A DNA stretch of 64,000 nt from Deferrivibrio essentukiensis (GTDB taxonomy: Bacteria; Chrysiogenota; Deferribacteres; Deferribacterales; Deferrivibrionaceae): positions 106,243 through 170,242 of the forward strand of contig NZ_JAJAFU010000003.1 in NCBI RefSeq assembly GCF_020480685.1, written 5' to 3'. The first letter of the stretch is position 1. Each line of letters opens with the position of its first letter. Made by a program: the position numbers and the translations under genes. The notes under the pieces are model-generated. The model ran no database searches and was not told where the DNA came from. It was given only the letters and a program-made list of their open reading frames with translations. Shown in pieces: positions 9,535 through 25,849 of the stretch.

Positions 9535-10416
9535 ATGTTTAAGGGAAGTATTGTAGCAATTGTAACACCGATGAAAAATAACAAAGTTGACGAGGAAGCA
9601 CTAAGACGCTTGGTGGAGTTTCAAATCGAAAATGGAACTGACGGAATTGTTCCTTGTGGGACAACAGGTGAATCAGCAACACTTACTTATGAAGAGCATT
9701 GCCAGGTAATCGATATAGTAATCGATCAGGTCAAAAAAAGGGTACCTGTAATTGCAGGGACCGGCTCAAACAGCACTCATGAAACAATATTTTTAACAGA
9801 ACATGCTAAAAAGGCGGGAGCTGATGGCGCTTTGGTAATAACCCCTTACTATAACAAACCTACTCAAGAGGGTCTTTACCAGCATTTTAAAGCAGTTGCT
9901 GAAGCTGTTGATATACCAATAATTTTATACAATGTACCTGGAAGGACGGCTTGCAATATGTTGCCTGAAACTGTCATTAGGCTTTCAAAGATAAAAAATA
10001 TCGTGGGCGTAAAAGAGGCAAGCGGCTCACTTGATCAGGCCACAGAAATTATTCTTAATACCGACGATGAATTTGCACTATTAAGCGGGGAAGACTCTTT
10101 ATCTTATCCACTATACTGTATCGGGGCAAAAGGTGTAATATCAGTAGCCACAAACATTGTGCCTGCACTTATGGCAAAGATGTGCGACGCTTTTGAAGCA
10201 GGAGATTATAAAACCGCCCTTGAAACACATTTAAAACTATTCCCGCTTTTTAAAGCAATCTTCTTTGAAACAAATCCTATACCTATCAAGAAAGCAGTGC
10301 ATTTAATGGGGCTAATAGAGGATGAAATCAGATTACCTCTTGTCAAGATGACCAAAGCAAATGAGGACAAACTTAGAAAAGTATTAATAGACCTTGGAAT
10401 AAATCTAAAGAATTGA
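9535..10416 (+). CDS. dapA: 4-hydroxy-tetrahydrodipicolinate synthase
   Basis: DapA condenses aspartate semialdehyde with pyruvate, the first committed step to diaminopimelate. The protein has 293 residues from the ATG at 9535, preferred over 9523 because GGAGG lies 5 bases ahead. The Schiff-base lysine is Lys160 (GVKEASGS), with Tyr132 (LYNVPGRT) and the Thr43-Thr44 pair (PCGTTGES) also in place. The reading frame is intact and the length normal. It is followed after ten bases by dapB. Confidence 0.97.
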   Translation: MFKGSIVAIVTPMKNNKVDEEALRRLVEFQIENGTDGIVPCGTTGESATLTYEEHCQVIDIVIDQVKKRVPVIAGTGSNSTHETIFLTEHAKKAGADGALVITPYYNKPTQEGLYQHFKAVAEAVDIPIILYNVPGRTACNMLPETVIRLSKIKNIVGVKEASGSLDQATEIILNTDDEFALLSGEDSLSYPLYCIGAKGVISVATNIVPALMAKMCDAFEAGDYKTALETHLKLFPLFKAIFFETNPIPIKKAVHLMGLIEDEIRLPLVKMTKANEDKLRKVLIDLGINLKN

Positions 10417-10426
10417 GGGATAATGT

Positions 10427-11227
10427 ATGGTTAATATAGGCGTAATCGGTGCAGCCGGAAGAATGGGGAGAAGGATAATAGCCCTTAGCGGTGAAGATGC
10501 TAATACCAATATCACAGCCGCCTATGAATATTCTAAATCCGAATTTTTAGGACAAGATTCAGGGACTTTGGCAGGGATAGGGGAAACAGGTATAAAAATT
10601 GAATCTGATATAGAAAACGCAAAAAATAAATGTGATGTATTAATAGATTTTACAGGTGCAAAACCAACAATGAGCAATCTTGAAAAATACAGGGTAGCAA
10701 ATATACCGCTTGTCATCGGCAGTACAGGTTTTGAGCCGGATGAAATCGAAAGGATAAAAGAGCTCGGCAAACAGCTGCCTGTGGTATTTGCTCCAAACAT
10801 GAGTCTTGGTGTCAATCTTACATTTAAAATCTTAGAAATGGTTTCAAAGGCCATAGGTGACATATATGATATTGAGATAATCGAATCTCATCATAGACTT
10901 AAAAAAGATGCTCCAAGCGGGACAGCCATGAAAATGGCAGAGGTAATTGCTAATACACTCAAAAGGGACCTTGATAAAGATGCAGTCTACTGCAGAAGAG
11001 GACTCATTGGGGAAAGGACTGATAAAGAGATAGGGATTCAAACTATTAGAGCCGGCGATATCGTTGGAGAACATACTGTAATGTTTTGTGGACAAGGGGA
11101 AAGGATAGAAATTACCCATAAGGCTCACACAAGGGATACATTTGCAAAAGGTGCTATAACTGCTGCAAAATGGTTGAAAGGGAAAAGCCCCGCTCTTTAT
11201 AGTATGTTTGATGTATTAGGACTATAA
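10427..11227 (+). CDS. dapB: 4-hydroxy-tetrahydrodipicolinate reductase
   Basis: DapB reduces the DapA product with NAD(P)H. The 266-residue protein has the dinucleotide loop GAAGRMGRRI at residues 8-17 and the catalytic block ESHHRLKKDAPSGTA, with His155/His156 and Lys160 as the expected proton donor and substrate-binding residues. GVNLTFKIL and STGF are further family blocks. It is the last gene of the dap operon and is followed at once by a strong hairpin terminator. Confidence 0.97.
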   Translation: MVNIGVIGAAGRMGRRIIALSGEDANTNITAAYEYSKSEFLGQDSGTLAGIGETGIKIESDIENAKNKCDVLIDFTGAKPTMSNLEKYRVANIPLVIGSTGFEPDEIERIKELGKQLPVVFAPNMSLGVNLTFKILEMVSKAIGDIYDIEIIESHHRLKKDAPSGTAMKMAEVIANTLKRDLDKDAVYCRRGLIGERTDKEIGIQTIRAGDIVGEHTVMFCGQGERIEITHKAHTRDTFAKGAITAAKWLKGKSPALYSMFDVLGL

Positions 11228-11258
11228 AAAAAGCGACCCTTACAGGGTCGCTTTTTTT
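11226..11258. terminator. Bidirectional intrinsic terminator between dapB and ilvD
   Basis: AGCGACCCT at 11232-11240 pairs perfectly with AGGGTCGCT at 11244-11252 around a three-base loop. An A run precedes and a T run follows the stem, so the same hairpin ends transcription from both sides. It overlaps the stop region of both convergent genes. Confidence 0.93.
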
Positions 11259-13089
11259 ATTCATACTTTGATATATCTCTTACCGCACCTTTAGCGGCAC
11301 TTGTAGTAAATATCGAATAAGCCTTTAAGGCTTTGGAAACATTTCTCTTCCTGTTTAAAGGCTTAAAGCCTCTTTTTGCCACCTCTTCCCTTCTTCTGTT
11401 CAGCTCTTTGTCAGAAATTTCTATTGAAATTTTTCTATTTGGTATATCAATCTTTATAGTATCCCCGTCATTAATAAGTGCAATATTCCCGCCTTCTGCC
11501 GCTTCAGGAGAAACATGACCTATGGAAAGCCCTGACGTGCCGCCTGAAAACCTTCCATCTGTAATAAGTGCGCATACTTTTCCAAGCCCTTTTGATTTAA
11601 GATAGCTTGTGGGGTAAAGCATCTCCTGCATACCCGGACCTCCTTTTGGACCCTCATATCTTATTATCACCACATCGCCAGGCACTATTTTATCAGATAA
11701 AATGGCATTTACCGCATCTTCCTGACTTTCAAACACCCTTGCTTTACCTGTAAATTTCAAAATACTTTCATCCACACCGGCAGTTTTAACTATACACCCA
11801 TCATAAGCCAGATTTCCATAAAGCACGGCAAGCCCCCCATCCTGACTGTACGCATTTTTCTTATCCCTTATACACCCCTTTTCTCGGTCGGTGTCAAGCT
11901 CCCAATATTTATCCTGTGAAAATGGCTCAAGGGTCGGCACATTTCCCGGTGCTGCAGAATAAAACTTAAGGGCATCAGCATCTTTATTTACAATATCCCA
12001 TTTTTTAATGGCATCTTTTAGTGAATCTGTATGAACAGTCTTTACATCTGTGTGTATCAGGCCTGCCCTGTCAAGCTCACCCAAAATCCCCATTATTCCA
12101 CCTGCTCTGTGAACATCTTCAATATGGTATTTGTCAGTTGAAGGAGCAACTTTACATAAGTGGGGAACTTTTCTGGAAAGCCTGTCAATATCAGCCATTG
12201 TAAAATCAACACCTGCTTCATAAGCTATTGCAAGAAGATGAAGCACAGTATTTGTTGACCCACCCATTGCAATATCAAGGGTCATTGCATTTTCAAAGGC
12301 TTTAAAATTTGCGATAGACCTTGGCAACACCGACTCATCATTATTCTCATAATAAGCCTTTGTAAGCTCTACAATTCTCTTGCCAGCACTTACAAAAAGC
12401 TCTTTTCTTAATTTATGTGTGGCAACCAAAGTGCCGTTTCCAGGAAAAGCAAGCCCCAAAGCCTCAGCCAAGCAATTCATGGAGTTTGCAGTAAACATTC
12501 CAGAACATGAGCCACATGTTGGGCAGGCTGAGCGTTCCATAATGACTGTCTCTTCATCCGTCACTTCATCACTTACAGCAGCTACCATAGCATCCACTAA
12601 ATCCATCTTTTTTAAATTTCCACGAAGTTCAGCTTTGCCTGCCTCCATAGGACCACCGGAAACGAATACAGCAGGAATATTTAGCCTCATGGCGGCCATC
12701 ATCATCCCGGGGGTAATTTTATCGCAATTTGAAATACACACCATTGCATCTACGCAGTGAGCATTAAGCATATACTCTACCGAATCAGCAATAAGCTCCC
12801 TTGAAGGGAGACTGTAAAGCATACCATCATGCCCCATTGCAATCCCGTCATCTATTGCAATTGTATTCATCTCCTTAGGGACACCACCTGCTTCTTTTAT
12901 AGCCTCAGCTACAATATCACCATTATGTTTCAAATGCACATGTCCCGGAACAAACTCGGTGTAAGAATTGACAATAGCAATTATAGGTTTATTAAAATCT
13001 TCCTCTTTTGTACCGGTCGCACGCCAAAGTGCCCTTGCTCCCGCCATATTTCTCCCTTGAGTTGAAGTATAAGATCTGTATCTTGGCAT
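11257..13089 (-). CDS. ilvD: Dihydroxy-acid dehydratase
   Basis: IlvD dehydrates dihydroxy-isovalerate and dihydroxy-methylvalerate in valine, isoleucine and leucine synthesis. The 610-residue length fits the E. coli-type enzyme. Cysteines expected to bind the Fe-S cluster are visible: Cys122 ([10 protein letters not shown]), Cys189/Cys192/Cys195 (ACPTCGSC). The C-terminal [15 protein letters not shown] block is also diagnostic. GGAGG lies close ahead of the ATG. No other ilv or leu genes flank it; it is transcribed alone, against the dap operon. Confidence 0.97.
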
Positions 13090-13118
13090 AACTCCTCCAT
13101 AATTAGTTATAATGGTTA

Positions 13119-13146
13119 TTTATACCACTTTATAAAAATATCACAA
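13119..13146 (-). promoter_or_regulatory. Candidate ilvD promoter
   Basis: On the minus strand TTGTGA (13146-13141) and TATAAA (13124-13119) are 16 bases apart, about 30 bases upstream of the ilvD start. It lies back to back with the promoter of the chemosensory operon. Confidence 0.5.
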
Positions 13147-13183
13147 TATTTTTTAAAAAATATCATTTTTGCATAAAATAATA

Positions 13184-13211
13184 TTGTCATTCATTTTTTT
13201 TGTGGTAAAAT
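13184..13211 (+). promoter_or_regulatory. Promoter of the chemosensory operon, ending next to the start codon
   Basis: TTGTCA at 13184-13189 and TAAAAT at 13206-13211 have a 16-base spacer. The -10 ends only six bases before the ATG at 13218, so RNA would start at or near the A of the ATG. There is no ribosome site ahead of that ATG, which fits a leaderless message. Confidence 0.55.
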
Positions 13212-13217
13212 TTTGGC

Positions 13218-13667
13218 ATGCATATCCTTTTTAAGCAAAACAATACTTTTTTTTGTGTTGATGAAAAATATGTAGAAATGTTTGTATTATCAAAAAATTT
13301 TTACAATTTTGCAATGACACCGAACTTTATATCAGGCTTTGAAAATATTAAGGGTGAAATCTACCCGGTTATCGATTTACATGGATTTATATCTAACTCA
13401 AACCATGAGGAAAAGGAGTATTTAATAAAATTAACTCAACCTCTAAGCATCTTGCTTTACAGCACCATAAGACCTAATATTATTGAAATTTTGGATACCG
13501 TTCAAAAAACGAAAGTAGATTCGGACTTAAAAACCATATGCGATTTCAATTTTAGAATTGAAAATAATATCATTTATAATCTAAATATGGGGAAGTTAGA
13601 AAACATACTCAAAGATTATCAAAAAAATATTTATATCGGAGATAGTTATGATAAAGAAAGTTTTTAG
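13218..13667 (+). CDS. CheW-like adaptor protein
   Basis: A 149-residue protein with a divergent CheW-like fold. The recognisable part is residues about 40-56, FENIKGEIYPVIDLHGF, matching the central strand pair of CheW (N-[IL]-[RK]-G-x-[IV]-x-P-[IV]-[IV]-D-[LF]). CheW proteins bridge chemoreceptors and CheA. It is the first gene of the cluster and overlaps the receptor gene by 20 bases, so the pair is translationally coupled. The start shown has no ribosome site. Alternative starts further in would cut the first strand of the fold. The identification rests on this motif and on context. Confidence 0.7.
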   Translation: MHILFKQNNTFFCVDEKYVEMFVLSKNFYNFAMTPNFISGFENIKGEIYPVIDLHGFISNSNHEEKEYLIKLTQPLSILLYSTIRPNIIEILDTVQKTKVDSDLKTICDFNFRIENNIIYNLNMGKLENILKDYQKNIYIGDSYDKESF

Positions 13668-15816
13668 TCTCAAATCAATTGTATACTCAAGGCTTATACT
13701 CCTTTCGGCTCTGTTTGTCGCTTTTTTAATGTCAATTATGCTTTTAAGTTCTAATCTCATCAAAAAGCTTGATGTCAAATATTCAAATATGATTAAGGAA
13801 AATTTGGTAGATTTGATAGAATCAAAAATAAATGCCGAATCATATTACCTGGAAAGCTCCTTTATAAAACTTCACCTTATTGCCGACCAAAATAACGGAG
13901 CGATAGAAGATATCGTTAAAAATATATCTTTGGGGGAAAACACAAGGCTAAATCTCTACAAGCAAATAGAAAATTCATTCATATTAAGATATTCAAGCGC
14001 TGAAAAACCTTCAAACACAATTGGGCTCAATTCAGAAATTGTGGCTGTCACATCAAGCGGCGGCAGTAAAATTTACAAAACTATCACAAATGACTCTTTA
14101 TTCTTAAACGGATATTTCGGATACACTTACAAAGGGGATAAATACATCGTCCAGATTGGTAAAATAACCCCTATGAAATTTGATACATTAAACGAACTAA
14201 ACATCCACAATGACCAAAACTACAAATTTGTGGATTTTAACAATGAAGAAATTATTTACACTGCTAAAGATACCAATAAAAATCCAAATGCTCATTTTAT
14301 TCCAATGACAAAGCAGTATATAGAAATCAAAAGCATACAAAAAAGCGACTATACTAATGTATACGTAATTATCTTTATCGGACTTTTAATCCTTTTTATA
14401 TGCTGGCTTATCACTGAAATATTTTATTATAAGTTTTCCACAAAACCTATTATAGAAATCACTAACTCTTTAAATAATATACTTGAAAATAGCAGTAAAT
14501 CAGATTTTAAGGAACAGCATATTGAAGAGTACGATAAGATTTCCACAACTATTCAAGCTGTTATAGACAAAATATCTCTCCAACAACAACAAATGGAAAC
14601 TCTTTTAAATAGACTACCAATACCGGTGGCAGTAATAGATATAAATTATAACTTTTTATATAGAAATTCCTCTTTTAATACTCTTTTAAGTCTACCTGAT
14701 GATTTAAGCGACCAAAATTTTTTGGACATAATCCCTGAAACTTTAAAAAGCTTAGAAACCAATATTACAGCTTTTTTAAATTCACCGAAACAGAAGGATA
14801 AATTTGAGCTTTACGACCCGAAAAAGAATGAGTACTTCATAGTAAGATTTGGGAAAATCACTAATGAGAGCAGCAAGATTACAAATACCATCATACTTTT
14901 CAATGATATCACATTCCAAAAAAGGGAGCTTGAAAATCAGAAGAGAAGGAAAGAAGAGATAGAAAATATTTTATTAAATATAGAAGAATCCGTAATGCGC
15001 CTTACATCTTCGTCAAAAGAGCTTAGGATGTCTGCCGAATCTCTTAGCACTATGCTTGCGCAGCAAAACACAAGCCTTGCCGAAACAAACGTTGCAATTC
15101 AGGAGCTTAGCACTTCAGCCGACAGTATTTTAAACAAAACGTCACATATCCTTGATGTCTCAAATAAAGTAGATAAGGCGTCTCAGATAGGTTTTAACGA
15201 AGTGGAAAAGTCATTTAACAAAATCAATAGCGTTATAAAGATTACTGACACTTTGACAGATACAATATTCCAGTTAAACAAAAAAACTCATAATATTAGT
15301 AAAATATTAAAAACAATTTATGAAATCTCTGAGCAGACAAATCTTTTGGCACTTAACGCTTCTATAGAATCTGTAAGAGGTGATTCCAACAGTATGTCAT
15401 TTAAAATTATAGCTGAAGAGATAAGGGAATTATCTGATAAAACATACGGTTTTAGCAAAGAGATAGAGAAAGAGCTTGAAGACATTACAGATGTAGGCTC
15501 AAATTCCGTAATGATTGTGGAAGAAGCTGAAAAGCTATTAAAAGATACTTTTGAACATATGCAGGAAAATAAAGGCAATTTTGAAGTCATCAAAAATGAA
15601 GCTGACCACATAAATAAACATCTTATAGAAATTAACAATGTAATCAAAGACTTGAACAATGCCACCAATGATGTACTGACTACATCAAACGACTTAGCGA
15701 TTGCCATGAAAGATGCACTTAATTCTGCCAATGAATCTCAGCAGGCTAGCAAAGATGTAGATGCAGTCATTAAAAATTTAAATGAAACATTAGCCCATTT
15801 GGATAAATTGAAGTAA
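13648..15816 (+). CDS. Methyl-accepting chemoreceptor with extracytoplasmic sensor and PAS domain
   Basis: A 722-residue receptor. Membrane helices are at about 13-34 and 238-260, bounding a sensor domain of about 200 residues. A short linker follows, then a PAS-like domain at about 315-425 (PIPVAVIDINYNFLYRN), then a long coiled-coil signalling domain from 430. The hairpin tip at 559-600 reads EISEQTNLLALNASIES, then FKIIAEEIRELSDKT. The QTNLLALNA block is intact, but the usual ARAGE and GFAVVA parts are replaced (VRGDSNS, SFKIIA), so the tip is divergent. The stop overlaps the cheA ATG by one base. The presence of its own CheW-like, CheA, CheB and CheR in the operon suggests a dedicated array. 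Confidence 0.9.
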   Translation: MIKKVFSLKSIVYSRLILLSALFVAFLMSIMLLSSNLIKKLDVKYSNMIKENLVDLIESKINAESYYLESSFIKLHLIADQNNGAIEDIVKNISLGENTRLNLYKQIENSFILRYSSAEKPSNTIGLNSEIVAVTSSGGSKIYKTITNDSLFLNGYFGYTYKGDKYIVQIGKITPMKFDTLNELNIHNDQNYKFVDFNNEEIIYTAKDTNKNPNAHFIPMTKQYIEIKSIQKSDYTNVYVIIFIGLLILFICWLITEIFYYKFSTKPIIEITNSLNNILENSSKSDFKEQHIEEYDKISTTIQAVIDKISLQQQQMETLLNRLPIPVAVIDINYNFLYRNSSFNTLLSLPDDLSDQNFLDIIPETLKSLETNITAFLNSPKQKDKFELYDPKKNEYFIVRFGKITNESSKITNTIILFNDITFQKRELENQKRRKEEIENILLNIEESVMRLTSSSKELRMSAESLSTMLAQQNTSLAETNVAIQELSTSADSILNKTSHILDVSNKVDKASQIGFNEVEKSFNKINSVIKITDTLTDTIFQLNKKTHNISKILKTIYEISEQTNLLALNASIESVRGDSNSMSFKIIAEEIRELSDKTYGFSKEIEKELEDITDVGSNSVMIVEEAEKLLKDTFEHMQENKGNFEVIKNEADHINKHLIEINNVIKDLNNATNDVLTTSNDLAIAMKDALNSANESQQASKDVDAVIKNLNETLAHLDKLK

Positions 15817-17750
15817 TGATTGAAAATAACAAACTCAGAGAATTATTTGTTGATGAAGTTTTGTACCATATACGTCAAGCCCGTGACTTTTTAAATAAAT
15901 CTTTTGAGTCATCAAAAGACAGCGCTGAAGTTTTTAAAATTGTCAAAGTATTTCACACGATTAAGGGCTCAGCAGGGATAATGGGGCTTGAAAAATTTAC
16001 AGATATACTACACACTTGTGAAACTTTTTTTCAAGCAATAAATAAGGCAGGTTACACACCTGAAACAAAAATAAAAGCTATTAAGATTATCGACGAGATA
16101 GAAACCCTTATTTCAAATTTCCCTGACAAGTTTGACCAACATCTTAAAAATCTTGAAGACATAATCTCATCAAAAAACGAGGATGAAGCACCCATTGAAA
16201 AGCCGGCAGAAAATATCAAAAAAGATGAAATTAAGACATCAGGAATAAAAATAAACACAGATATAGTTGCACAATTAAGACAGCTTGCCCAAGAAGTAAC
16301 CCAAATAGTTGAATACAGTTTTAGCCCTGTTAGTAATAAAGAGAAGAAAAAATATAAAGACAAGGTTTCTGAACTTTTTCAACATATCGAAAATATTACA
16401 CTTGTAAGTCTTGAAGAGCTCACACCTAAAATAAAAAATATTGCCCATTACACCGCAACAAAGCTCAATAAAGATATAAATATCGATATAAATTTTAACA
16501 AAGTAGGTGTAGATAAAAGATTTTTTAGTATTGTCGAAGAAGCCCTGATACACCTTGTCAGAAACTCTATATCTCATGGAATCGAGTCACCAGAAGTAAG
16601 AAAGGAAAAAGGGAAAAATGATAAGGGGAGCATAATTGTCACTGCAAGCAGTCATGGAAGCAAAATAAAAATTACGGTAGAAGATGACGGGCAAGGTATT
16701 AATATTGAAGCTATTACAAAAAAAGCCATAGAGCAAAACATACTAACTGAAAATGAAGCAAAGACCGCTTCTGCTAATATGTTGATAAACCTAATTTTCA
16801 GACCTAATTTTTCCACAGCAGAGACAATTGACAATATTAGTGGCAGAGGTATCGGGCTTGATATTGTAAAAGAAAGGGTAGAAGCAGTAGGCGGCCTTAT
16901 AAAAGTATCCACTTCAAACAAAGGGACAAAATTCATTCTGGAAATGCCCGTCTCATTCAATATTATGTATTGCGGCATTCTATCTACAAAAGGTGAAAAA
17001 GTCGCAATTCCTCTTTATCTAATAGACAGATTTATCTCTATTAAAGAGCATATGTTAATTAGAGACAATAGGTCAAACAGGATAATCTATAACGAAAAAG
17101 AATATGAGCACATAAGTATTTCTAACTTCTTTGCTACAGAATCAGAATATGATGCCATTGGTGTAATAGTGATGGGAAAAGAAACGGTGTTGTCTTTCGA
17201 AAAGTATGAAGGGGAAAAATTATTCTACGTCAAACAGTTAACAGGGGTAATAACATCAGTGCCAAATATAATAGGCTTTGCAGTTGATGATACTTTTAGG
17301 CCTATTGCCATAATTAACCCCCTCACCATATCAAGCTCAAACCTATACCCAATTAATAGCACAGTTGAAAATCAAAAATCTATAAAATCAAAAAAACACA
17401 CTGCTTTGGTAGCCGATGATAATAACCTTATAAAAGAAATGATTTCAGACTTTTTAAAAGGGGAAAATATAGACGCAGATACAGCTCAAAATGGTGTAGA
17501 AGCGCTTAAGCTGTTTAAAAATAATAATTATGATATAATAATAACGGATATAGAAATGCCTGAAATGGATGGTATATCCCTTTTAAAAGAGGTTAGAAGT
17601 GGCAATAAGGTTGTCCCGGTGATAATACTCAGCTCAAAAGGGGATGAAAACGATATAAAACTTGCACTAAAAAATGGAGCAAACGGATATTTTGTAAAGA
17701 AATTTTTCACAAGGGAAAATTTCATTAAAAAGGTAAAATCATTATTATGA
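15816..17750 (+). CDS. cheA: Hybrid chemotaxis kinase CheA with C-terminal receiver
   Basis: A 644-residue CheA-REC fusion. Order: Hpt domain (1-110) with phospho-His47 in FHTIKGSAG; linker to 145; a short, divergent dimerisation region (145-220); HATPase domain (235-380) with Asn250 in the N box, DDGQG at 290-294 and GRGIGLD at 343-349; CheW-like regulatory domain (385-505); receiver domain (528-644) with Asp578 in IITDIE and acidic pair ADD near 533. Hybrid CheA-REC proteins are typical of chemosensory systems that serve functions other than the flagellar motor. No separate CheY gene lies in the operon, so the fused receiver may be the output or a phosphate sink. It overlaps cheB by ATGA. 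Confidence 0.93.
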   Translation: MIENNKLRELFVDEVLYHIRQARDFLNKSFESSKDSAEVFKIVKVFHTIKGSAGIMGLEKFTDILHTCETFFQAINKAGYTPETKIKAIKIIDEIETLISNFPDKFDQHLKNLEDIISSKNEDEAPIEKPAENIKKDEIKTSGIKINTDIVAQLRQLAQEVTQIVEYSFSPVSNKEKKKYKDKVSELFQHIENITLVSLEELTPKIKNIAHYTATKLNKDINIDINFNKVGVDKRFFSIVEEALIHLVRNSISHGIESPEVRKEKGKNDKGSIIVTASSHGSKIKITVEDDGQGINIEAITKKAIEQNILTENEAKTASANMLINLIFRPNFSTAETIDNISGRGIGLDIVKERVEAVGGLIKVSTSNKGTKFILEMPVSFNIMYCGILSTKGEKVAIPLYLIDRFISIKEHMLIRDNRSNRIIYNEKEYEHISISNFFATESEYDAIGVIVMGKETVLSFEKYEGEKLFYVKQLTGVITSVPNIIGFAVDDTFRPIAIINPLTISSSNLYPINSTVENQKSIKSKKHTALVADDNNLIKEMISDFLKGENIDADTAQNGVEALKLFKNNNYDIIITDIEMPEMDGISLLKEVRSGNKVVPVIILSSKGDENDIKLALKNGANGYFVKKFFTRENFIKKVKSLL

Positions 17751-18763
17751 GTAATAAAATTAAGATATTTATTGTAGATGATTCCGCATATATCAGAAAC
17801 TTTTTAAAATCAAATCTTAAAGATGAATTTGACATTGTAGGTGAGGCAAAAGACGGCATTGAAGCGTTAAAGAAGGTTTATACCCTAAACCCTGACCTTG
17901 TTATTCTTGACCTTATGATGCCCAAAATGAGTGGAGATATGGTAGCAAAAGCGATTATGTCCAATAAACCGCTACCAATAATAATGCTAACATCCCTTTC
18001 TGACTCAGAAATAAAAAAATCCTTTAATCTTTTAGAAAGTACAGTGGTCGAAATAGTTAAAAAGCCTATGGAGCTTGATAGTAACTTCGTTAATAACCTG
18101 ACAAAAAAGATAAAAATATGTAAAAATCTTAAAATAAATAAGGTGAGCGAGTCCCTCTCTCAGTATGTTACAATGCCCAATAACATCACCCTTAAAAAAA
18201 ATTATGCTTTAACAATAGGTGTTTCAACAGGTGGTCCAAAAACATTGAGAAATTTAATACCATTTTTAACCTCTATAGAAAATCTTCCGATTTTTTTGAT
18301 TCAACACATAGACTTAGAATTTGAAAAAGGGTATTCTGAGTGGATTCAAGAGTTTTCACAAAAAGAGGTTATATTATTATCAAAAAAAACTGTTTTGGAA
18401 GATAAATTATATTTATGCTCAGGTAAATTTAATTTGGATCTAACAAATAATTCAAACAGGCTCTATATTGAGCTCTTACAGGCTGAGCCAAATCAGCTTT
18501 ATTTCCCTTGTATTGACAAAATAGTTACAAATGTTGCCTATAGACTTAAGGATAGGCTGATACATCTTCAACTTACGGGGCTTGGAAATGACGGCCAAGA
18601 GGGTGCATTGATTGCTCACAAGCTTGGAGCTACCATTATTTGTCAGAAACCAGAATCAGCAATTGCAAGCTCAATGCCTAAAGCGGTAGCTGATTTTGCT
18701 GATTACATTTTGGAACTGCATGAAATAAAAGAAAAAATTTTAAATATTCTGAGTGGACAATGA
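17747..18763 (+). CDS. cheB: Chemotaxis methylesterase CheB
   Basis: CheB demethylates or deamidates receptor glutamates and tunes adaptation. The 338-residue protein has a receiver domain (1-125) with Asp55 in VILDLMMPKMSG and a methylesterase domain (150-338). The catalytic triad is visible as Ser160 (GVSTGGP), His187 (IQHID) and Asp282 (GLGNDGQEG). Both domains look active. It is overlapped by four bases at both ends with its neighbours. Confidence 0.95.
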   Translation: MSNKIKIFIVDDSAYIRNFLKSNLKDEFDIVGEAKDGIEALKKVYTLNPDLVILDLMMPKMSGDMVAKAIMSNKPLPIIMLTSLSDSEIKKSFNLLESTVVEIVKKPMELDSNFVNNLTKKIKICKNLKINKVSESLSQYVTMPNNITLKKNYALTIGVSTGGPKTLRNLIPFLTSIENLPIFLIQHIDLEFEKGYSEWIQEFSQKEVILLSKKTVLEDKLYLCSGKFNLDLTNNSNRLYIELLQAEPNQLYFPCIDKIVTNVAYRLKDRLIHLQLTGLGNDGQEGALIAHKLGATIICQKPESAIASSMPKAVADFADYILELHEIKEKILNILSGQ

Positions 18764-20148
18764 TTCTTGCATTGGTGAAAAAAACTCTTCTCAAAGAGCA
18801 GCTTAAAAATTATTTTAAAGAAATAAAATTCTATGACTCCCCTCTTGAGCTTGTGCAGGAAATGCATAAATTTAATAAACTTGCACTTATTGTTGAGAAT
18901 ACAGGTTTTGAAATCAGCGGTTTTCTATTCTCGGCAATAATCGATAAGTTGATACCTGACAGGAGATTTCATATATATTTGCTTACCAACGATACTTCAA
19001 AATCTTTCCTCGTCAATAAAACGTTTCATAATATTTATACTGTGCCATATTCAGACCTATCGTTGTTAGAAAATTTATCTGAAAACGTGTGTCAATTATC
19101 TCCGGTGGAAAAAGAAGCTTTTTACGATACTTTTGAAAAAATTTTTATTACTGAAAAAATTAAAACTTTTATTCTTGATTACTCACATCTAATTTTGGAA
19201 AATATAACCGAGCCGAGCACATGGTTTAATGAATACTATGATTTAGTCAAATTAATTACGGGCATTGAAAAAACTGTAATAAAACTTTTTCTTGATACTC
19301 AGCAATTGATATTCACGAGTATAAAAGACTTTCGCCTTCATAATATTTTACATTACGAAATTACTAAAAATATAGACAACTATATTATTCTAATGCCTGA
19401 AACCTGTTATGATGTTGATAATAGTGAAGAGTTTATTAAATACAATATAGAGTCTTTTGGGCAAAAGATAGGTGAAATAATATTTGTCTTTAATAAGGCA
19501 ATATTTAACAATGACTCGGTTGAATCAATATTAAGATTTTTGCTTAACCCTCTTAAGTTTTTCTCATGGTACAACTCCTACTCATTCATTAAAAATAAAG
19601 CCACTTCAGGGCTTAACTCTGCAAAAATGTTTCAAAATATTTTTAAAAAGATAGAAAATGTAATGCCAAAGAATAATAACATAATTGTTTCTGCAGAAAA
19701 AACATCTTACTTTACCATAAAACATAGAGACAGCTTATATTACTTTGTGTCAACCGCTACTAACGAAATCAATACACTACTCAATGTTTATATAAATAAC
19801 TTTATATCGGTTTCAAATCCAAGCTTTGCTGAACTCATTTCAGCAGTTAATAGTTTTATACATAGCAACATATTATATCTTTACCCTTTGCCTTTAGGTT
19901 TGTTAAAAATTACCGAAAATAGTGTCTTTTTTAGTGCCACTGAAGGGATATTGGCTTTTTATGAGGATGAAGATACAAAAAAAATCTTAGAAACAAACAT
20001 GCAATATTTTGGAACTTATGATACAATAACCGAAGAGATAATAGAGCTTCCTTTTGGTGCTAATGTAAAGATTAAGTTATGTCCTGATGCTTTTTTCTTA
20101 ACTTTAAAAGATAGAGAAAAATTAATTAAGGGGTTTTTAAAGGTTTAA
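18760..20148 (+). CDS. Unknown chemosensory-operon protein; possible degenerate receiver plus PP2C/SpoIIE-like fold
   Basis: A 462-residue protein of no family I can name. Residues 1-110 have a receiver-like pattern: hydrophobic strand ILALV, DSPLELVQEM helix, LALIVENTGFEISGF in the place of the phospho-Asp strand (with no Asp), then HIYLLTND and a later YTVPYSD. The phosphorylation residues appear lost. Residues 130-260 could be a GAF-like domain. Residues 305-455 recall a PP2C/SpoIIE phosphatase: FAELISAVNSFIHSN, then LGLLKITENSVFFSATEGILAFY, then IELPFGANVKIKLCPDAFFL where active enzymes have Gly-Asp and Thr-Asp-Gly. The metal-binding Asp residues are mostly missing, so it may be a binding-only version. 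The domain reading is my inference. It overlaps cheB by ATGA and precedes cheR by two bases, so it belongs to the signalling system. Confidence 0.75.
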   Translation: MILALVKKTLLKEQLKNYFKEIKFYDSPLELVQEMHKFNKLALIVENTGFEISGFLFSAIIDKLIPDRRFHIYLLTNDTSKSFLVNKTFHNIYTVPYSDLSLLENLSENVCQLSPVEKEAFYDTFEKIFITEKIKTFILDYSHLILENITEPSTWFNEYYDLVKLITGIEKTVIKLFLDTQQLIFTSIKDFRLHNILHYEITKNIDNYIILMPETCYDVDNSEEFIKYNIESFGQKIGEIIFVFNKAIFNNDSVESILRFLLNPLKFFSWYNSYSFIKNKATSGLNSAKMFQNIFKKIENVMPKNNNIIVSAEKTSYFTIKHRDSLYYFVSTATNEINTLLNVYINNFISVSNPSFAELISAVNSFIHSNILYLYPLPLGLLKITENSVFFSATEGILAFYEDEDTKKILETNMQYFGTYDTITEEIIELPFGANVKIKLCPDAFFLTLKDREKLIKGFLKV

Positions 20149-20150
20149 AA

Positions 20151-21518
20151 ATGTATGCCGAGAAATTAGAAGAGATAAAGCGCCTTGTAAAAGCTTACTC
20201 AGGCCTCCTTATAAAAGGGAGCCTTGAAGCAAAATTTGAAGAAATATACAAACTTTGGGTATCAAAAACAGGGAATAACCCTTTCAAATTACTGGATCTT
20301 CTAAAAAATAACCCAGCAGAGCTAAGAGAATTTATCTCTGACATAACTATAAATGAGTCTTTCTTTTTCAGAAATGCTGAGCAGTTTGAATGTCTTAAAA
20401 ACTTACCTCAGACCCCTATAAATAAAAAGCCTGAAATTAACATTTTATCTATTGGCTGCTCTAACGGCTGTGAACCATATTCTTTAGCTATGTATATTCA
20501 CAAAAACCTACCTGAATTATTTAAAAAGATTAGAATAACAGGAATAGATATTAGCAGTAAAATTATTGAAGTGGCAAAAGCCGGCATATATCAAAGTTGG
20601 TATTTAAGACACACAAGAAAAGAGTATTTAGAAAATTATTTTAAAAAAATTGACAACGATTACGCTGTAATTAATGAAATAAAAAACAAAGTTGATTTCT
20701 TAACAGAAAATTTCTTGGATTTTAATATCAATACCACTTACCAGGTAGTATTCTGCAGAAACTTTTTAATTTATTTTGCCCCGGAAACTATTGAGCAAAT
20801 TTGCCTGAAAATATCTAAGCTCCTTGATAAAGACGGATATATCATATTTGGGCATTCGGATACGCTTATGGTGCCCGGTAGTATATTTGCCAAAAATGGA
20901 TGCCGTTTTTATGTAACTACTTTAAATGACAGTAAAAATATTCAAAATATTACCGATATCCCTATAAGAATGTCTTATGACTTAAACTCAAGCCAAGGCA
21001 GACCTAAAAAAGATGAATCGGAAGTTTTTAAAAAAGGGGTACAGTTTATTAAAGACGGTGTCTATGCTGAAGCCGCAAAAGAATTTGAATATCTTTTAAA
21101 AAAGATAAACCCAAAAAACTTAAGGGCTGCAACATTTTTGGCTTATTGCCACTATAGACTCGGGAATCTCAAAGAAGCTGAAGAGGTGCTCGATAGTATT
21201 ATAAACAAGGAATGTATGATTTATGAACCTTATCTTATTTATGCAATTCTACTATTTGACAAAAAACAATATGAAGTCTCGCTTGAAAATTTAAGAAAAG
21301 TACTTTTTATAAACCCTGAAAGTGAAATAGGTTGGTTTTACTTAGGGCAAGTCTATGAGCAAATTAAAGAAAAGGCTTCAGCAATTAATGCCTATAAAAG
21401 AGCAATAAATATAATAGAAACTTTCCCTGAAACTAAAAGGTATCCTCTTTCTCCGGAAATTACTGCTGAATCATTGAAGGAATGGATTACAAATAAACTT
21501 TCAAAGCTTGAGTCTTAA
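20151..21518 (+). CDS. cheR: CheR-type protein methyltransferase with C-terminal TPR repeats
   Basis: CheR methylates receptor glutamates using S-adenosylmethionine. The 455-residue protein has the CheR N-terminal and catalytic domains at about 1-265, with TINESFFFRNAEQF, the SAM loop IGCSNGCEPYSLAMYI, FCRNFLIYF and IIFGHSDTL. From about 285 to 440 there are tetratricopeptide repeats (for example AATFLAYCHYRLGNLKEAEEVL and GWFYLGQVYEQIKEKASAINAYKRA). CheR-TPR fusions occur in non-flagellar chemosensory clusters such as those controlling pili or development. It ends the operon. Confidence 0.92.
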   Translation: MYAEKLEEIKRLVKAYSGLLIKGSLEAKFEEIYKLWVSKTGNNPFKLLDLLKNNPAELREFISDITINESFFFRNAEQFECLKNLPQTPINKKPEINILSIGCSNGCEPYSLAMYIHKNLPELFKKIRITGIDISSKIIEVAKAGIYQSWYLRHTRKEYLENYFKKIDNDYAVINEIKNKVDFLTENFLDFNINTTYQVVFCRNFLIYFAPETIEQICLKISKLLDKDGYIIFGHSDTLMVPGSIFAKNGCRFYVTTLNDSKNIQNITDIPIRMSYDLNSSQGRPKKDESEVFKKGVQFIKDGVYAEAAKEFEYLLKKINPKNLRAATFLAYCHYRLGNLKEAEEVLDSIINKECMIYEPYLIYAILLFDKKQYEVSLENLRKVLFINPESEIGWFYLGQVYEQIKEKASAINAYKRAINIIETFPETKRYPLSPEITAESLKEWITNKLSKLES

Positions 21519-21574
21519 AAATGTATTATAGCGTTATACGGCAAAAAAATATATTTAATAAAAATTAACGAAAA

Positions 21575-21868
21575 TTAAAGAGTCTTAAGGATATTTTGTT
21601 TTAGCTCTGCCAAGTCTTCTTCGGAAACTGAACCAAAGTCAACATCCTGAGTAAAGCTGTCAATTTTTTGAAGTGTCTCTTTATCAGATTTACCGATTTC
21701 AGCCATCAAACTTGATATGAAAGATAATTTTCTGGCATCGGAAGATATAATTACCTTATCAATGTTTTTATCAGGGGAACTTTTTTCAGAGGATGAAGCC
21801 TTACTGTACTTAACCTGTTTGTTGTAAGTCCTCAAAATGTCATAAATCTTTCCACCCTGAATTGTCAT
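21575..21868 (-). CDS. Small protein resembling anti-sigma-28 factor FlgM
   Basis: A 97-residue, hydrophilic, probably partly disordered protein. The pattern IQGGKIYDILRTYNKQ near the start, a low-complexity Ser/Lys stretch (SKASSSEKSSPDK), DKVIISSDARK and a helical C-terminal half recalls FlgM, which holds back the flagellar sigma factor. The C-terminal region is not close enough to be sure. The ATG at 21868 is preferred over a TTG at 21880. It is convergent with the chemosensory operon, with no flagellar genes next to it. Confidence 0.5.
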   Translation of the reverse strand: MTIQGGKIYDILRTYNKQVKYSKASSSEKSSPDKNIDKVIISSDARKLSFISSLMAEIGKSDKETLQKIDSFTQDVDFGSVSEEDLAELKQNILKTL

Positions 21869-21939
21869 AGGACCGCCCAAATATATTTTTCTACATTTCT
21901 TACATCGGCACCCTTTTAAAAAAACTTTAGAAATTTTTT

Positions 21940-23403
21940 TTATTTTTTAAAATTTTCAGGTAACCTCTTGTGCCAATCAGTATTATTTTGATATATTTTT
22001 GCAAAATTTATAACTTTTTCTTCCTCAAAATAATTACCTAAAAGCTGAAATCCTATAGGCAGACCTTTCCCGTCAAAACCGCAAGGGATAGAAACTCCAC
22101 AACCACCAAAAAGATTAAGTGAAATAGTAAAAATATCACTCAAATACATACTGACAGGGTCGTTTATTTTTTCACCAAACTTAAAAGCAGTATTTGGGAC
22201 AGTAGGGGCAAGCAATACATCAACTTTTTCAAAAGCACTTATGAAATCTTTCTTAATAAGTGACCTTACTTTTTGAGCTTTAAGGTAGTAAGCATCATAA
22301 TATCCCGCACTTAAAACATAAGTCCCAAGCATGATACGTCTTTTCACTTCCTTGCCAAAACCCTTAGAGCGAGTTAACTCATACATATCTATCAAATTAT
22401 CCGCTTCACTTCTAAAAGTATATCTAACCCCGTCATACCTTGCCAAATTACTTGAAGCTTCAGCAGTAGCAATTATATAATACACTGCAATTGCATATTC
22501 TGTATGAGGCATGCTAACTTCGACAATCTCCGCACCTTGAGATTTGTAAAAATCTATAGCGTCACTGACACACTTTAACACATCCGAGTCAATACCGCCC
22601 TCAAAATATTCCTTTGGGATACCAATCTTTTTGCCGCGGATATCATTATTTATATCTTTTGTATAATCTTTCTCCTCTATCTTTATAGAAGTTGAATCTT
22701 TACAGTCATATTTTCCTACCACATTAAGAAGATGTGCACTATCTTCAATATCTCTTGAAAATGGGCCTATCTGGTCCAAACTTGAAGCAAAAGCTACCAA
22801 ACCGTATCTTGAAACTAATCCATAGGTAGGTTTAAAACCACAAACACCGCAGAGAGCAGCCGGCTGCCTGATAGAGCCCCCCGTATCGCTCCCAAGGCTT
22901 ATTGGGGCAAGCCCTGCAGCGACACACACTGCCGCACCACCACTTGAACCTCCGGGCACTCTTTCCAAATCCCAAGGATTTTTGGTCTTTTTATAATAAG
23001 AGGTTTCTGTAGAAGAGCCCATTGCAAATTCATCCATGTTTACTTTACCTAAAATGATAAAACCGTTCTCTTTCAAAAGGTTGCTTACCGTTGAGTCATA
23101 AGGGGGATTAAAATTTTCCAAAATCTTTGATGAACAAGTAGTATATAGGTCTTTGGTAATTATGTTATCCTTAAGAGCAATGGGGATACCGGCATATTTC
23201 GGTAAATTTTCCCCTTTCATCCTTTTTTCATCAATAAGTTTTGCCTCATTCAAGGCATTTTCATTTAAAGCAAGAAATGAGTCAAGCTGTATATCAAATT
23301 TTTGAATTCTGTCTAAGTAAAATTTATTCAATTCATATGCAGATATTTTCTTTGATTCTAAAAGCTCCAAAGTTTCATTTATATTAAGTGTCAGTAAATC
23401 CAT
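21940..23403 (-). CDS. gatA: Aspartyl/glutamyl-tRNA amidotransferase subunit A
   Basis: GatA is the glutaminase/amidase subunit of GatCAB, which makes Gln-tRNA(Gln) and Asn-tRNA(Asn) from misacylated precursors. With the ATG at 23403 the protein has 487 residues. The amidase Ser-cisSer-Lys triad is visible: Lys78 (PIALKDNI), the Ser in PGGSSGGAA (153/154) and Ser177 (DTGGSIRQP). A GTG at 23412 would add three residues; the G-rich stretch there more likely serves as ribosome site. It follows gatC directly; gatB is not in the window. Confidence 0.95.
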   Translation of the reverse strand: MDLLTLNINETLELLESKKISAYELNKFYLDRIQKFDIQLDSFLALNENALNEAKLIDEKRMKGENLPKYAGIPIALKDNIITKDLYTTCSSKILENFNPPYDSTVSNLLKENGFIILGKVNMDEFAMGSSTETSYYKKTKNPWDLERVPGGSSGGAAVCVAAGLAPISLGSDTGGSIRQPAALCGVCGFKPTYGLVSRYGLVAFASSLDQIGPFSRDIEDSAHLLNVVGKYDCKDSTSIKIEEKDYTKDINNDIRGKKIGIPKEYFEGGIDSDVLKCVSDAIDFYKSQGAEIVEVSMPHTEYAIAVYYIIATAEASSNLARYDGVRYTFRSEADNLIDMYELTRSKGFGKEVKRRIMLGTYVLSAGYYDAYYLKAQKVRSLIKKDFISAFEKVDVLLAPTVPNTAFKFGEKINDPVSMYLSDIFTISLNLFGGCGVSIPCGFDGKGLPIGFQLLGNYFEEEKVINFAKIYQNNTDWHKRLPENFKK

Positions 23404-23414
23404 CTCCACCACCC

Positions 23415-23720
23415 CTACTCTATAACTCTTGGCACTTTAAAATGACTAAATTCAGACTCAGGTGCATTCCTAAATACTTCATCTTCGCTCAAACCTCTTT
23501 TAGCCATATCTTCCCTAAACACATTCACCAAATCAAGGGCGTGGGAAGTCGGCTCAATATCAGAAGTATCAAGCTCACTTAATTTATCTATATAGTTTAA
23601 AATATTATTCAAATCAGTCCTTAGACCATCTATCTCTTCCTCTTCAAGTCTAAGCCTTGCCAACTTGGCAATTTTCAAGACCTCATCACGACTCAATTTT
23701 TCAGGCACATGCTCCTCCAT
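23415..23720 (-). CDS. gatC: Aspartyl/glutamyl-tRNA amidotransferase subunit C
   Basis: GatC wraps around and stabilises the GatA-GatB interface. The 101-residue protein shows the family pattern VLKIAKLARLRLEEEE near the start, ILNYIDKLSELDTSDIEPTSHA in the middle and a REDMAKRGLSEDEVFRNAPE stretch towards the end, finishing FKVPRVIE. It lies upstream of gatA with about a dozen bases between stop and start, so the two form an operon. Confidence 0.93.
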   Translation of the reverse strand: MEEHVPEKLSRDEVLKIAKLARLRLEEEEIDGLRTDLNNILNYIDKLSELDTSDIEPTSHALDLVNVFREDMAKRGLSEDEVFRNAPESEFSHFKVPRVIE

Positions 23721-23797
23721 TTTTTCTTTATCATATTAAGATTAATTTTTTTTGTAAACGAAAAATATAACTATACAACTCAAATACTTTTTTTAAT

Positions 23798-25849
23798 CTA
23801 AGCTGATAAAAATCTCTTTACAATCTTTTTAAGCCCGCAGAGTTTAAAAAACACATCTACTTTTGCATCTTCACCACTTCCTGTTATTGAGATAACTATC
23901 CCTTCCCCAAACTTTTCATGCCTTACCTTAGCACCTTCTTTAATCTCACTACCATCAGACTTTTCTTCAAATGTTTTCGGTATCTTTATTTCATTAATAA
24001 AACTTGATGCATAAGAGCTTACCCGTTTACCGTAGTGCAATCTTGAAGAGGCATAGCTCACATATAAATTTCTTTTTGCCCGGGTCACACCCACATAACA
24101 AAGCCTGCGCTCCTCTTCCAAGGCTCTTTCATCATCCATAGAACCATACAAAGGGAATAACCCTTCCTCTAACCCGGTCAAAAAAACCGTATCAAATTCA
24201 AGCCCTTTTGCAGCATGGACAGTCATCACATTAACATTCTCACCCGCATCTTCATCAGTAGAAGATATGAGGGTGATATTTGAAAGAAATTCATTTAGTG
24301 TAAGCTCCCCTTTCTCTTCCATCGCTGCAGCTGAGTTTATTAATTCTTCCAGATTTAAAATTCTCTTTTCAAATGTTGCAACCTCTTCAAATTGTTTCAT
24401 ATATTCTTCATAATTAATAGCTTTAATAATATAATCTATCATTTCGGAAACAAGCCTTACCCCTTTTAAGCCTTCAAATATTCTCAAATATTCTTTTATA
24501 TTTTCTGTCTGCTTAGTGGTAAAACTTTTTAAGTTGTCTTCAATTGACTTAAATATATCAACATTGTGCTCAAATGAATATCTTATCAGCTTATCAATAG
24601 TAACATTTCCAAACCCTCTTGACGGATTCTTCATAGTCCTTATAAATGACTGAAAATCATACGGATTTTCATAAACTCTCAAATAAGATAAAATATCCTT
24701 TATCTCTCTACGCTGATAAAATCCAATACTCCCTATAACTTTATAAGGTATTTTCAGTTTATTAAATTCCACCTCAAAATTTCTCGATTGTGCATTTGTC
24801 CGATATAATACAGCAATCTCATTGTAGCTTGTGCCATTGTCTACTAAATACTTTATCTTTTTTGCCACCCAAGCAGCCTCATCCTGCTCATCATAACAAC
24901 TCTTTATAAGAATTTCACCGCTCAAATTCAATGCCGGCAAAAGCTCCTTCCCCTTTCTAAACCTGTTGTTAGAAATTAATTTATTTGCTGCGATAAGAAC
25001 ATTTTGCTGACTTCTGTAATTGTTAATAAGCTTAACTATCTTTGTATTCTCAAAATATTTATCAAAGTCGAGTATATTGTTAATGTCAGCCCCTCTCCAA
25101 CCATATATTGACTGGTCATCATCCCCTACGGCACAAATATTTCCATTTACACCCGACAATTGCTGCAAAAACACAAACTGTAATGTATTTGTATCCTGAT
25201 ACTCATCTACCAAAATATGCTGAAAAAGATTTTGATAGTATTCGGCAATATTTTTATTCCCCAAAAATATTCTCACAACAAGGGAAATCATATCATCAAA
25301 ATCAACCATATTTAAAAATGAAAGATTTTTTTGATATTCATCAAATACTTCAGAAACCATATAAAAATCCTCATTTAGAGGCAGTTTTTCCACAAATGAT
25401 AAGGTATTTTTATAACTGCTTATGATATTAAGATAAACCTTCGGAGGGTACTTCTTTGAATCGATATTTAACTTTTTCAATATATCTCTAATCAAAGAAA
25501 TTCTGTCCTCTTGGTCGATTACGCCAAAATTCTGATTAAGCCCGGCCTTGTCATACTCAAGTCTTAATAACCTCAAAGCAATAGAATGAAATGTCCCAAT
25601 CCAGAGGTTATTTACTTTTTCCCCTACCAAATAATAAAGCCTCTGCTTCATTTCTGAAGCAGCTTTATTTGTAAATGTCACAGCCATAATTCTCTCAGGC
25701 TCAATCTGCTCATTTTCGATCAAATTATAAATCCTATATGTAATTACCCTTGTCTTTCCTGTTCCGGCTCCCGCCAAGACAAGTAGAGGGCCGTTAATAT
25801 AAGTCACTGCGTCATACTGTTCCTTATTCAAAACTTCAGTCAAATTCAT
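23798..25849 (-). CDS. UvrD/PcrA-type superfamily 1 DNA helicase
   Basis: A 683-residue 3'-5' DNA helicase for repair and removal of RecA or stalled transcription complexes. Motifs in order: Q-motif LNKEQYDAV (7-15), Walker A AGAGTGKTRVI with Lys32, motif Ia VTFTNKAASEMKQR, motif II ILVDEYQDTN, motif III GDDDQSIYGWRGAD, motif IV LINNYRSQQNVL, motif V VMTVHAAKGLEFDTVF and motif VI EERRLCYVGVTRAKRNLY. The C-terminal tail holds a short domain with VRHEKFGEGIVISI, which in PcrA binds RNA polymerase. Whether it is UvrD, PcrA or Rep is a naming matter. Its ATG overlaps the stop of the ClC gene. Confidence 0.95.
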   Translation of the reverse strand: MNLTEVLNKEQYDAVTYINGPLLVLAGAGTGKTRVITYRIYNLIENEQIEPERIMAVTFTNKAASEMKQRLYYLVGEKVNNLWIGTFHSIALRLLRLEYDKAGLNQNFGVIDQEDRISLIRDILKKLNIDSKKYPPKVYLNIISSYKNTLSFVEKLPLNEDFYMVSEVFDEYQKNLSFLNMVDFDDMISLVVRIFLGNKNIAEYYQNLFQHILVDEYQDTNTLQFVFLQQLSGVNGNICAVGDDDQSIYGWRGADINNILDFDKYFENTKIVKLINNYRSQQNVLIAANKLISNNRFRKGKELLPALNLSGEILIKSCYDEQDEAAWVAKKIKYLVDNGTSYNEIAVLYRTNAQSRNFEVEFNKLKIPYKVIGSIGFYQRREIKDILSYLRVYENPYDFQSFIRTMKNPSRGFGNVTIDKLIRYSFEHNVDIFKSIEDNLKSFTTKQTENIKEYLRIFEGLKGVRLVSEMIDYIIKAINYEEYMKQFEEVATFEKRILNLEELINSAAAMEEKGELTLNEFLSNITLISSTDEDAGENVNVMTVHAAKGLEFDTVFLTGLEEGLFPLYGSMDDERALEEERRLCYVGVTRAKRNLYVSYASSRLHYGKRVSSYASSFINEIKIPKTFEEKSDGSEIKEGAKVRHEKFGEGIVISITGSGEDAKVDVFFKLCGLKKIVKRFLSA

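Follow-up and report, generated by a model that had tools for sequence, protein, structure and literature searches.

Deferrivibrio essentukiensis carries a six-gene chemosensory operon whose fifth open reading frame (ORF), between cheB and cheR, encodes a protein, here called X, that is predicted to fold as a receiver-GAF-PP2C protein with RssB as its nearest structural relative. Judged from its model and alignment, X looks unable either to accept phosphate or to act as a phosphatase. The operon occupies positions 13218–21518, on the plus strand, of a 64,000-nucleotide stretch of the genome (the window), and its products, identified from the ORF list and Pfam, are in order a CheW-like protein, a methyl-accepting chemotaxis protein with a PAS domain (MCP-PAS), CheA fused to a receiver (CheA-REC), CheB, X and CheR fused to TPRs (CheR-TPR). 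On balance we lean towards the view that this is a probably insulated, Wsp-like system in which X occupies the output slot as a non-catalytic adaptor of the RssB type, whose binding would not depend on phosphorylation. Chemosensory operons with a multidomain output regulator are already known; the new element is a doubly degenerate RssB-like regulator in the output slot.

A six-gene chemosensory operon conserved in three genera

The genes of the operon and the features of X are as follows.

13218..13667, plus strand: CheW-like coupling protein, 149 aa; PF01584 20.8 bits, below the 23.5 cut-off
13648..15816, plus strand: methyl-accepting receptor, 722 aa; PF00015 78.2 bits, PF00989 (PAS) 22.5 bits, just below the 22.6 cut-off
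15340..15426, plus strand: receptor tip NLLALNASIESVRGDSNSMSFKIIAEEIR, divergent when compared with the genome's other receptors
15816..17750, plus strand: CheA-REC, 644 aa; Hpt (His47), no P2 match, HATPase, divergent P5 and C-terminal receiver (Pfam)
17747..18763, plus strand: CheB methylesterase with intact receiver and catalytic-site Ser, His and Asp (Pfam)
18760..20148, plus strand: protein X, 462 aa, predicted pseudo-receiver, GAF-like and PP2C-like domains (AlphaFold model m362dd6532718, pLDDT 82.4, pTM 0.54; PDB matches)
18760..19089, plus strand: receiver-like domain of X, residues 1–110 (AlphaFold model)
18895..18900, plus strand: Glu46-Asn47 codons of X, end of strand 3 (residues 40–46), invariant in 10/10 sequences
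19150..19509, plus strand: GAF-like domain of X, residues ~131–250 (Foldseek match to the GAF domain of 4g3k_B, E 3.4e-4; GAF and PAS types not separated)
19669..20145, plus strand: PP2C-like domain of X, residues 304–462, most metal ligands apparently lost (model and alignment)
20086..20088, plus strand: Asp443 codon of X, the sole retained PP2C metal-site Asp, invariant in 10/10 sequences
20151..21518, plus strand: CheR methyltransferase fused to TPRs, 455 aa; PF01739 151.6 bits plus TPR models

A first-pass annotation, made from the sequence alone, had described six genes that overlap or nearly touch; all six ORFs were found where it had placed them, with start-to-stop gaps of −20, −1, −4, −4 and +2 bases. 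Its two fusions, of a receiver to CheA and of TPRs to CheR, were likewise recovered by Pfam (Hpt, HATPase and REC in the one; CheR and TPR in the other). It had also proposed that the same six-gene order be sought in related genomes, and the order CheW-MCP-CheA-CheB-X-CheR recurs in five: the sister species G001, and G002, G018, G009 and G016. Six of the 59 genomes searched carry X, each with the identical order, and a profile search found it in 6 of 50 genomes of the phylum. The CheA type of the operon is confined to the same six of the 59 genomes (362–1375 bits; next best 207). Three of the copies lie outside the genus, at 24–48% protein identity to the window, and gaps over all copies range from −26 to +7 bases. 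Since the gene order recurs in five other genomes, three of them outside the genus at such low identity, it is not a matter of chance. It spans three genera; G018 belongs to the same taxonomic order as the window genome (G000; 2.36 Mb in 64 contigs), and one copy is in record DDHP01000065.1, from Deferribacteraceae bacterium UBA1873. The flanking genes look common within a genus and differ among the three genera.

The most distant copy, in G016, shares 24.3% (CheW), 24.7% (X), 36.9% (CheA), 38.9% (MCP), 39.1% (CheR) and 41.8% (CheB) identity with the window. Between G000 and G001, dN/dS is about 0.06–0.15 for five genes, and X shows 2 silent differences. A match to X in G004 was dropped: it covers 133 residues at 21% identity with 2 stops, overlaps an unrelated long ORF and is absent with the profile. 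Protein-database searches for X returned 7 clusters; each search scored only some 8,000 candidates that share words with the query, and the G009 and G016 proteins were not among its matches, so the rarity of X is not proven by them.

The comparison with G001 also revealed an uneven pattern of divergence. The two species are 95.6–100% identical over 14500–20000 and 93.8% in the flanking 500 bases at each end, about 82–90% identical in 11500–14000 and 20500–27500, and 94–97% identical again in 10000–11500. Correspondingly, dS falls from 0.72 (cheW) to 0.007 (X) and climbs to 0.45 (cheR). This pattern looks like a recent interspecies homologous exchange across the receptor-to-X genes (14000–20500).

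Protein X is predicted to resemble RssB

The first-pass annotation had left the fifth protein unknown. At the level of sequence families this still holds: Pfam and NCBIfam searches with the window protein, and a Pfam search with 10 aligned members, gave no meaningful match, and none to PF07228; a PDB sequence search gave a single match, dismissed as chance. The predicted structure goes further. In the AlphaFold model a receiver is followed by a GAF-like domain, a long helix and a PP2C-like domain, after which the chain ends, and RssB chains top both lists of structural matches in the PDB.

The residues on which activity would depend were counted in an alignment of 10 X sequences, with positions placed by the model. 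Glu46 occupies the position of the phosphorylated Asp of receivers in all 10 sequences, and the acceptor Asp is absent from every one. Gly at +8 (9/10) and Thr at +30 (8/10) follow at the spacing of CheY. Strand 1 is followed by V/A, K/N and K/N/S, such that the acidic pair is absent from 10/10, and the region after strand 5 has no conserved Lys. In the PP2C-like domain, the first part (304–355), by strand order the expected place of the GDYYD and DVSGHG motifs, spans 52 columns, none of them invariant; the second part has 12 invariant columns among 107, Asp443 included. Asp443 pairs with the Asp of TDG in a profile alignment to SpoIIE proteins of the order, and this is the only Asp of the SpoIIE-type metal-binding set that X keeps. 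PF07228 (SpoIIE) scores above its cut-off in all 29 genomes of kin searched, with 3 matches in G000; ordinary-looking SpoIIE members are therefore kept elsewhere in these genomes.

The receptor array is likely insulated

At its N-terminus the receptor has two long helices, taken to span the membrane, around a weakly Cache-like domain; the PAS and MCP signalling domains follow. Residues 1–320 were modelled with a pLDDT of 75; the top structural match is a formate-binding sensor (8py0, E 1e-3), and the search for the sensor fold gave weak Cache-like matches and nothing better. A search of G000 for receptor tips gave 10 places, of which one is the operon receptor and two fall in one frame, leaving 8 other receptors; these share a near-uniform tip, NLLALNAAIEAARAGE.G.GFAVVADE[VI]R, from which the operon tip differs. 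The CheW-like protein, whose NIKG motif is kept in all six copies, falls below the family cut-off, and the P5 domain of CheA gave no match with PF01584. Given a P5 missed by the CheW model, a sub-cut-off CheW-like protein and a different receptor tip, the operon array is likely to be insulated from the genome's other receptors, in agreement with both the divergent tip and the insulated array of the first-pass annotation.

The remaining signalling proteins look intact. All six CheAs retain the receiver Asp, the Hpt His and both the N and the G box, and the receiver is intact throughout; the receiver and the Ser, His and Asp residues of CheB, and the SAM motif region of CheR, are also kept in 6/6, these residues being assigned their usual roles. 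TPR models match the window CheR, and the other 5 CheRs align with it along their full length. Judged by sequence, the intact phosphate acceptors within the operon are the CheA receiver and CheB only.

Phylogenetic position of the operon CheA

A CheA tree of 81 rows was built from 72 loci, the six operon CheAs, two G000 paralogues and one plasmid row. Of 547 loci, 80 were kept; 73 of these yielded a CheA core and 7 were dropped. Since L015, among the 73, is the operon of G018, 72 loci remained. Clades were given labels of our own, flagellar by genomic context and long-CheR by CheR length alone. The six operon CheAs group together (100/100) at the end of a very long branch, and none falls in a clade with the flagellar-context label. 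Their clade sits next to the other CheA-REC of G000 (93/86); this join was flagged as a meeting of long branches. The class of the operon CheA is left unassigned on this tree.

Among the 73 loci, X was matched in L015 only (E 0.01), and a receiver-PP2C regulator occurs somewhere in three (L057, L073 and L085). The regulator in L073 (7016–8143), a Desulfobulbaceae che cluster, has intact-looking acceptor and metal motifs and lies beside a 456-aa CheR; by sequence, it looks like an active counterpart of the X-type layout. A Wsp reference was also sought in plasmids (449 records), and the match examined (H1) proved unusable: its CheR is of normal length, and WspR is missing from its surroundings.

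Two further clusters of G000 were noted. The second CheA-REC cluster, L102 6333–14661 (G000:C14), encodes receiver proteins, CheW, an MCP and CheA-REC, together with a sub-cut-off CheW-like protein and a 458-aa receiver protein whose C-terminal part is unmatched. The flagellar che cluster, L104 2552–5866 (G000:C10), encodes a PAS-SpoIIE protein, a STAS protein and a STAS plus HEAT-repeat protein, set amid che and flagellar-type genes, several of the names being assigned by eye.

Comparison with characterised systems

CheR-TPR genes are reported mostly from alternative-cellular-function (ACF) clusters with multidomain response regulators, and such clusters may carry receiver-phosphatase regulators (PMC3447774); L073, with its intact-looking motifs, resembles such a case. 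The operon has the CheR-TPR, a strong correlate of the ACF class, and X holds the place of the multidomain regulator, with the predicted architecture of one but no phosphorylatable receiver; it is a candidate output. The first-pass annotation had named the fifth protein as the best candidate for this role, and its position bears that out; with Glu46 and the apparent loss of PP2C ligands, however, X probably does not serve as an output of the usual phosphorelay kind.

The Wsp system resembles the operon in its receptor, CheA-REC (WspE), CheB (WspF), CheR-TPR (WspC, PMC3447774) and compact gene set, and its output is exchangeable, being WspR or WspH (PMC8552884). Unlike Wsp, which has two CheW proteins (WspB and WspD), the operon has one CheW-like ORF within 13218–21518. 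Neither a REC-GGDEF protein (WspR) nor a REC-histidine kinase (WspH) is encoded in the window operon, and the other copies have the same six genes; moreover, X looks unphosphorylatable and the operon CheA is unassigned to a class. RssB, from E. coli and P. aeruginosa, is the best structural match and combines a receiver with a degenerate PP2C-like domain, as X does in its predicted model; the RssB PP2C domain is without active-site residues and binds proteins (PMC7226468). In contrast to RssB, X has an inserted GAF-like domain, Glu in place of the phosphorylated Asp58, and a chemosensory operon as its setting. RssB delivers its sigma factor to ClpXP.

The che1 locus of Shewanella oneidensis is a chemosensory cluster that holds a receiver-PP2C regulator, CrsR, through which Che1 probably controls RpoS (PMC9855816, PMC6482189). 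Unlike X, CrsR carries an anti-sigma/kinase domain as its third domain; the locus also encodes CrsA, a partner of STAS type, together with CheY and CheD. FrzS of Myxococcus xanthus also ties a pseudo-receiver to a chemosensory system, being thought to transduce the Frz signal (PMC3158785); its C-terminus is a coiled coil, and the available text of that source describes no GAF or PP2C-like domain. CheA1 of Borrelia burgdorferi is a chemosensory-like kinase that affects RpoS stability and whose response regulator is unidentified (PMC10703414). Its effect is attributed there to altered protease expression, and the available text ties no RssB-like protein to CheA1. A search of the titles and abstract openings of open-licence papers returned no description of this operon or of X.

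Candidate targets of X

Six sigma-70-type matches were found in G000. One of them, L169, is RpoS-like (318.9 bits against the RpoS model; 328.4 with one RpoD model), and the gene ahead of it resembles pcm, a neighbour of rpoS in E. coli. This RpoS-like sigma factor, at 300 bits or above, is present in 25 of the 59 genomes, all six X genomes among them. A STAS-like and RsbW-like pair is also present in G000, and an RsbW-like protein in 5/6 X genomes and 14/59 overall; none was found in G009 at E 1e-10, and that of G016 is marginal. Co-occurrence of X with RpoS and RsbW is confounded by kinship. An RpoS-like sigma factor as the target of X is offered as a doubtful lead and not as a result.

All six X genomes have flagellin genes, and in G016 flaG and a flagellin gene are found about 5 kb away from the operon, so the output may be linked to the flagellum. 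None of the operons showed a CheY ORF. The first-pass annotation had noted that fusions of this type are known from systems that control pili, development or other non-flagellar outputs.

Promoter and surroundings of the operon

Two further features flank the six genes.

13184..13211, plus strand: sigma-70-like promoter candidate TTGTCA-16-TAAAAT with TG before the second hexamer (motif match)
21575–21880, minus strand: small downstream protein, weakly like the DVU0524 FlgM-associated family (18.9 bits; cut-off 40), no Pfam match

The −10-like TAAAAT of the promoter candidate ends 6 bases ahead of the cheW ATG. It is one of three plus-strand sites matching at 10/12 positions and the only one of the three with TG; promoter-like sites in the region are no more frequent than in shuffles (45 against a mean of 42.5). 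By eye, the bases before cheW are alike in G001 and G002, and in G018 TAAAAT stands 5 bases ahead of the ATG. With a −10-like box so near the start codon, the operon transcript may be nearly leaderless. An Rfam scan of 11000–24000 gave nothing at gathering score.

Upstream of the operon is an IlvD gene, read by eye from the ORF list, and the scanned neighbours are metabolic or housekeeping proteins (GatA, UvrD, a ClC channel, AFOR, AhpC and others). The operon itself showed no gene for CheY, CheD, CheZ or any flagellar component. Consistent with the first-pass annotation, the ORFs of 11500–23500 and 12 scanned neighbour proteins (2 + 10, one in both sets) include no CheY, CheD or flagellar gene.

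Discussion

If X is an RssB-like adaptor, the system might work as follows. The receptor, with its periplasmic and PAS domains, would control CheA. Since Glu fills the acceptor position of X, and the acidic pair and a conserved Lys are missing from it, CheA phosphate could pass, among the operon products, only to CheA's own receiver and to CheB. Phosphorylated CheB and CheR-TPR would set adaptation. X would then read the array through direct contact, the CheA receiver being the likeliest site, and its GAF-like domain might provide a second input. Its PP2C-like face would bind or release a target, in the way that RssB handles its sigma factor. The candidate target is an RpoS-like sigma factor or another sigma/anti-sigma partner. 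In its full form, this proposal is an output free of phosphate, in which a doubly dead RssB-like regulator reads the array by contact and sequesters or delivers a sigma factor, thereby coupling taxis-type sensing, with its methylation memory, to sigma availability; we consider that full form speculative and, taken as a whole, unlikely.

Several observations weigh against the adaptor reading. Together with CheW, X diverges fastest of the set (24.7–54.3% identity outside G001), which is unusual for an array-bound part. Foldseek TM-scores for the RssB rows are 0.20–0.28 by query length and the whole-chain fit has an rmsd of 13 Å; the match between X and RssB is therefore one of domain by domain. 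In a profile comparison, the N-terminus of X did not match the receivers of the same operons significantly (E 0.84 global, 0.1 local), so that its identification as a receiver rests on the model. Profile support for the PP2C-like domain is modest (HHalign against SpoIIE proteins of the order: probability 15–23%, P 4e-4 to 9e-4), and because the profile alignment is gapped over the first part, it is the strand order of the model, together with the lack of a conserved Asp there, that speaks for loss of the first metal ligands. As to the target, L169 scores below the RpoS cut-off (318.9 against 378.7), and most genomes with an RpoS-like sigma factor are without X. Lys173 of E. coli RpoS is needed for RssB, and at the corresponding position L169 has Glu, as RpoD does.

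X could instead be an accessory or adaptation part that binds CheA-REC, CheB or CheR and tunes phosphate flow or methylation, the output regulator being encoded elsewhere. The X gene stands between cheB and cheR in 6/6 copies, other regulators are present in G000, and the CheA-REC and CheB receivers are intact, with receivers fused to CheA often serving as phosphate sinks (PMC10782961). Yet ACF clusters usually hold a multidomain regulator (PMC3447774), and X has such an architecture by predicted fold, although the absence of an unlinked output regulator is not thereby shown, no search having been aimed at one; we regard an accessory role as possible but improbable. We are similarly sceptical that X governs sigma availability for flagellar or stress genes by a partner switch, as a degenerate CrsR or HsbR acting with a STAS protein and an RsbW-like kinase encoded elsewhere. 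The Che1-CrsR-RpoS precedent (PMC9855816, PMC6482189), the flagellin and RpoS-like sigma factor in all six X genomes, the STAS-like/RsbW-like pair of G000 and the RsbW-like protein in five of the six would all fit such a switch; however, CrsR and HsbR carry an anti-sigma/kinase domain that X is without, the operons showed no STAS gene, the search for the RsbW-like protein (E 1e-10) gave no match in G009 and a marginal one in G016, and kinship confounds the associations.

That X is still an enzyme or phosphoprotein, with Glu46 or another residue taking phosphate or the PP2C domain working with Asp443, seems very unlikely. Asp443 and the second PP2C-like part are its best-conserved region, but the acceptor Asp and acidic pair are absent from 10/10 sequences and, as far as the model places them, neither the Lys nor the metal ligands of the first part are conserved. 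We give next to no credence to a decaying relic. Two sites lost in X and divergent CheW and P5 could suggest decay, but all frames are open in 6/6 copies, dN/dS is about 0.06–0.15 (five genes) and the gene order is kept over three genera; purifying selection thus already contradicts it.

Chemosensory arrays are held to act by phosphorylating a response regulator. In this operon the output slot is taken by a protein that is kept over three genera, is apparently unphosphorylatable and seems to be without an enzyme site. If X does act as an RssB-like binding adaptor, the operon would offer a small, self-contained case in which to examine array signalling through a pseudo-receiver, and would also bear on why the RssB architecture arises outside the known RpoS setting.

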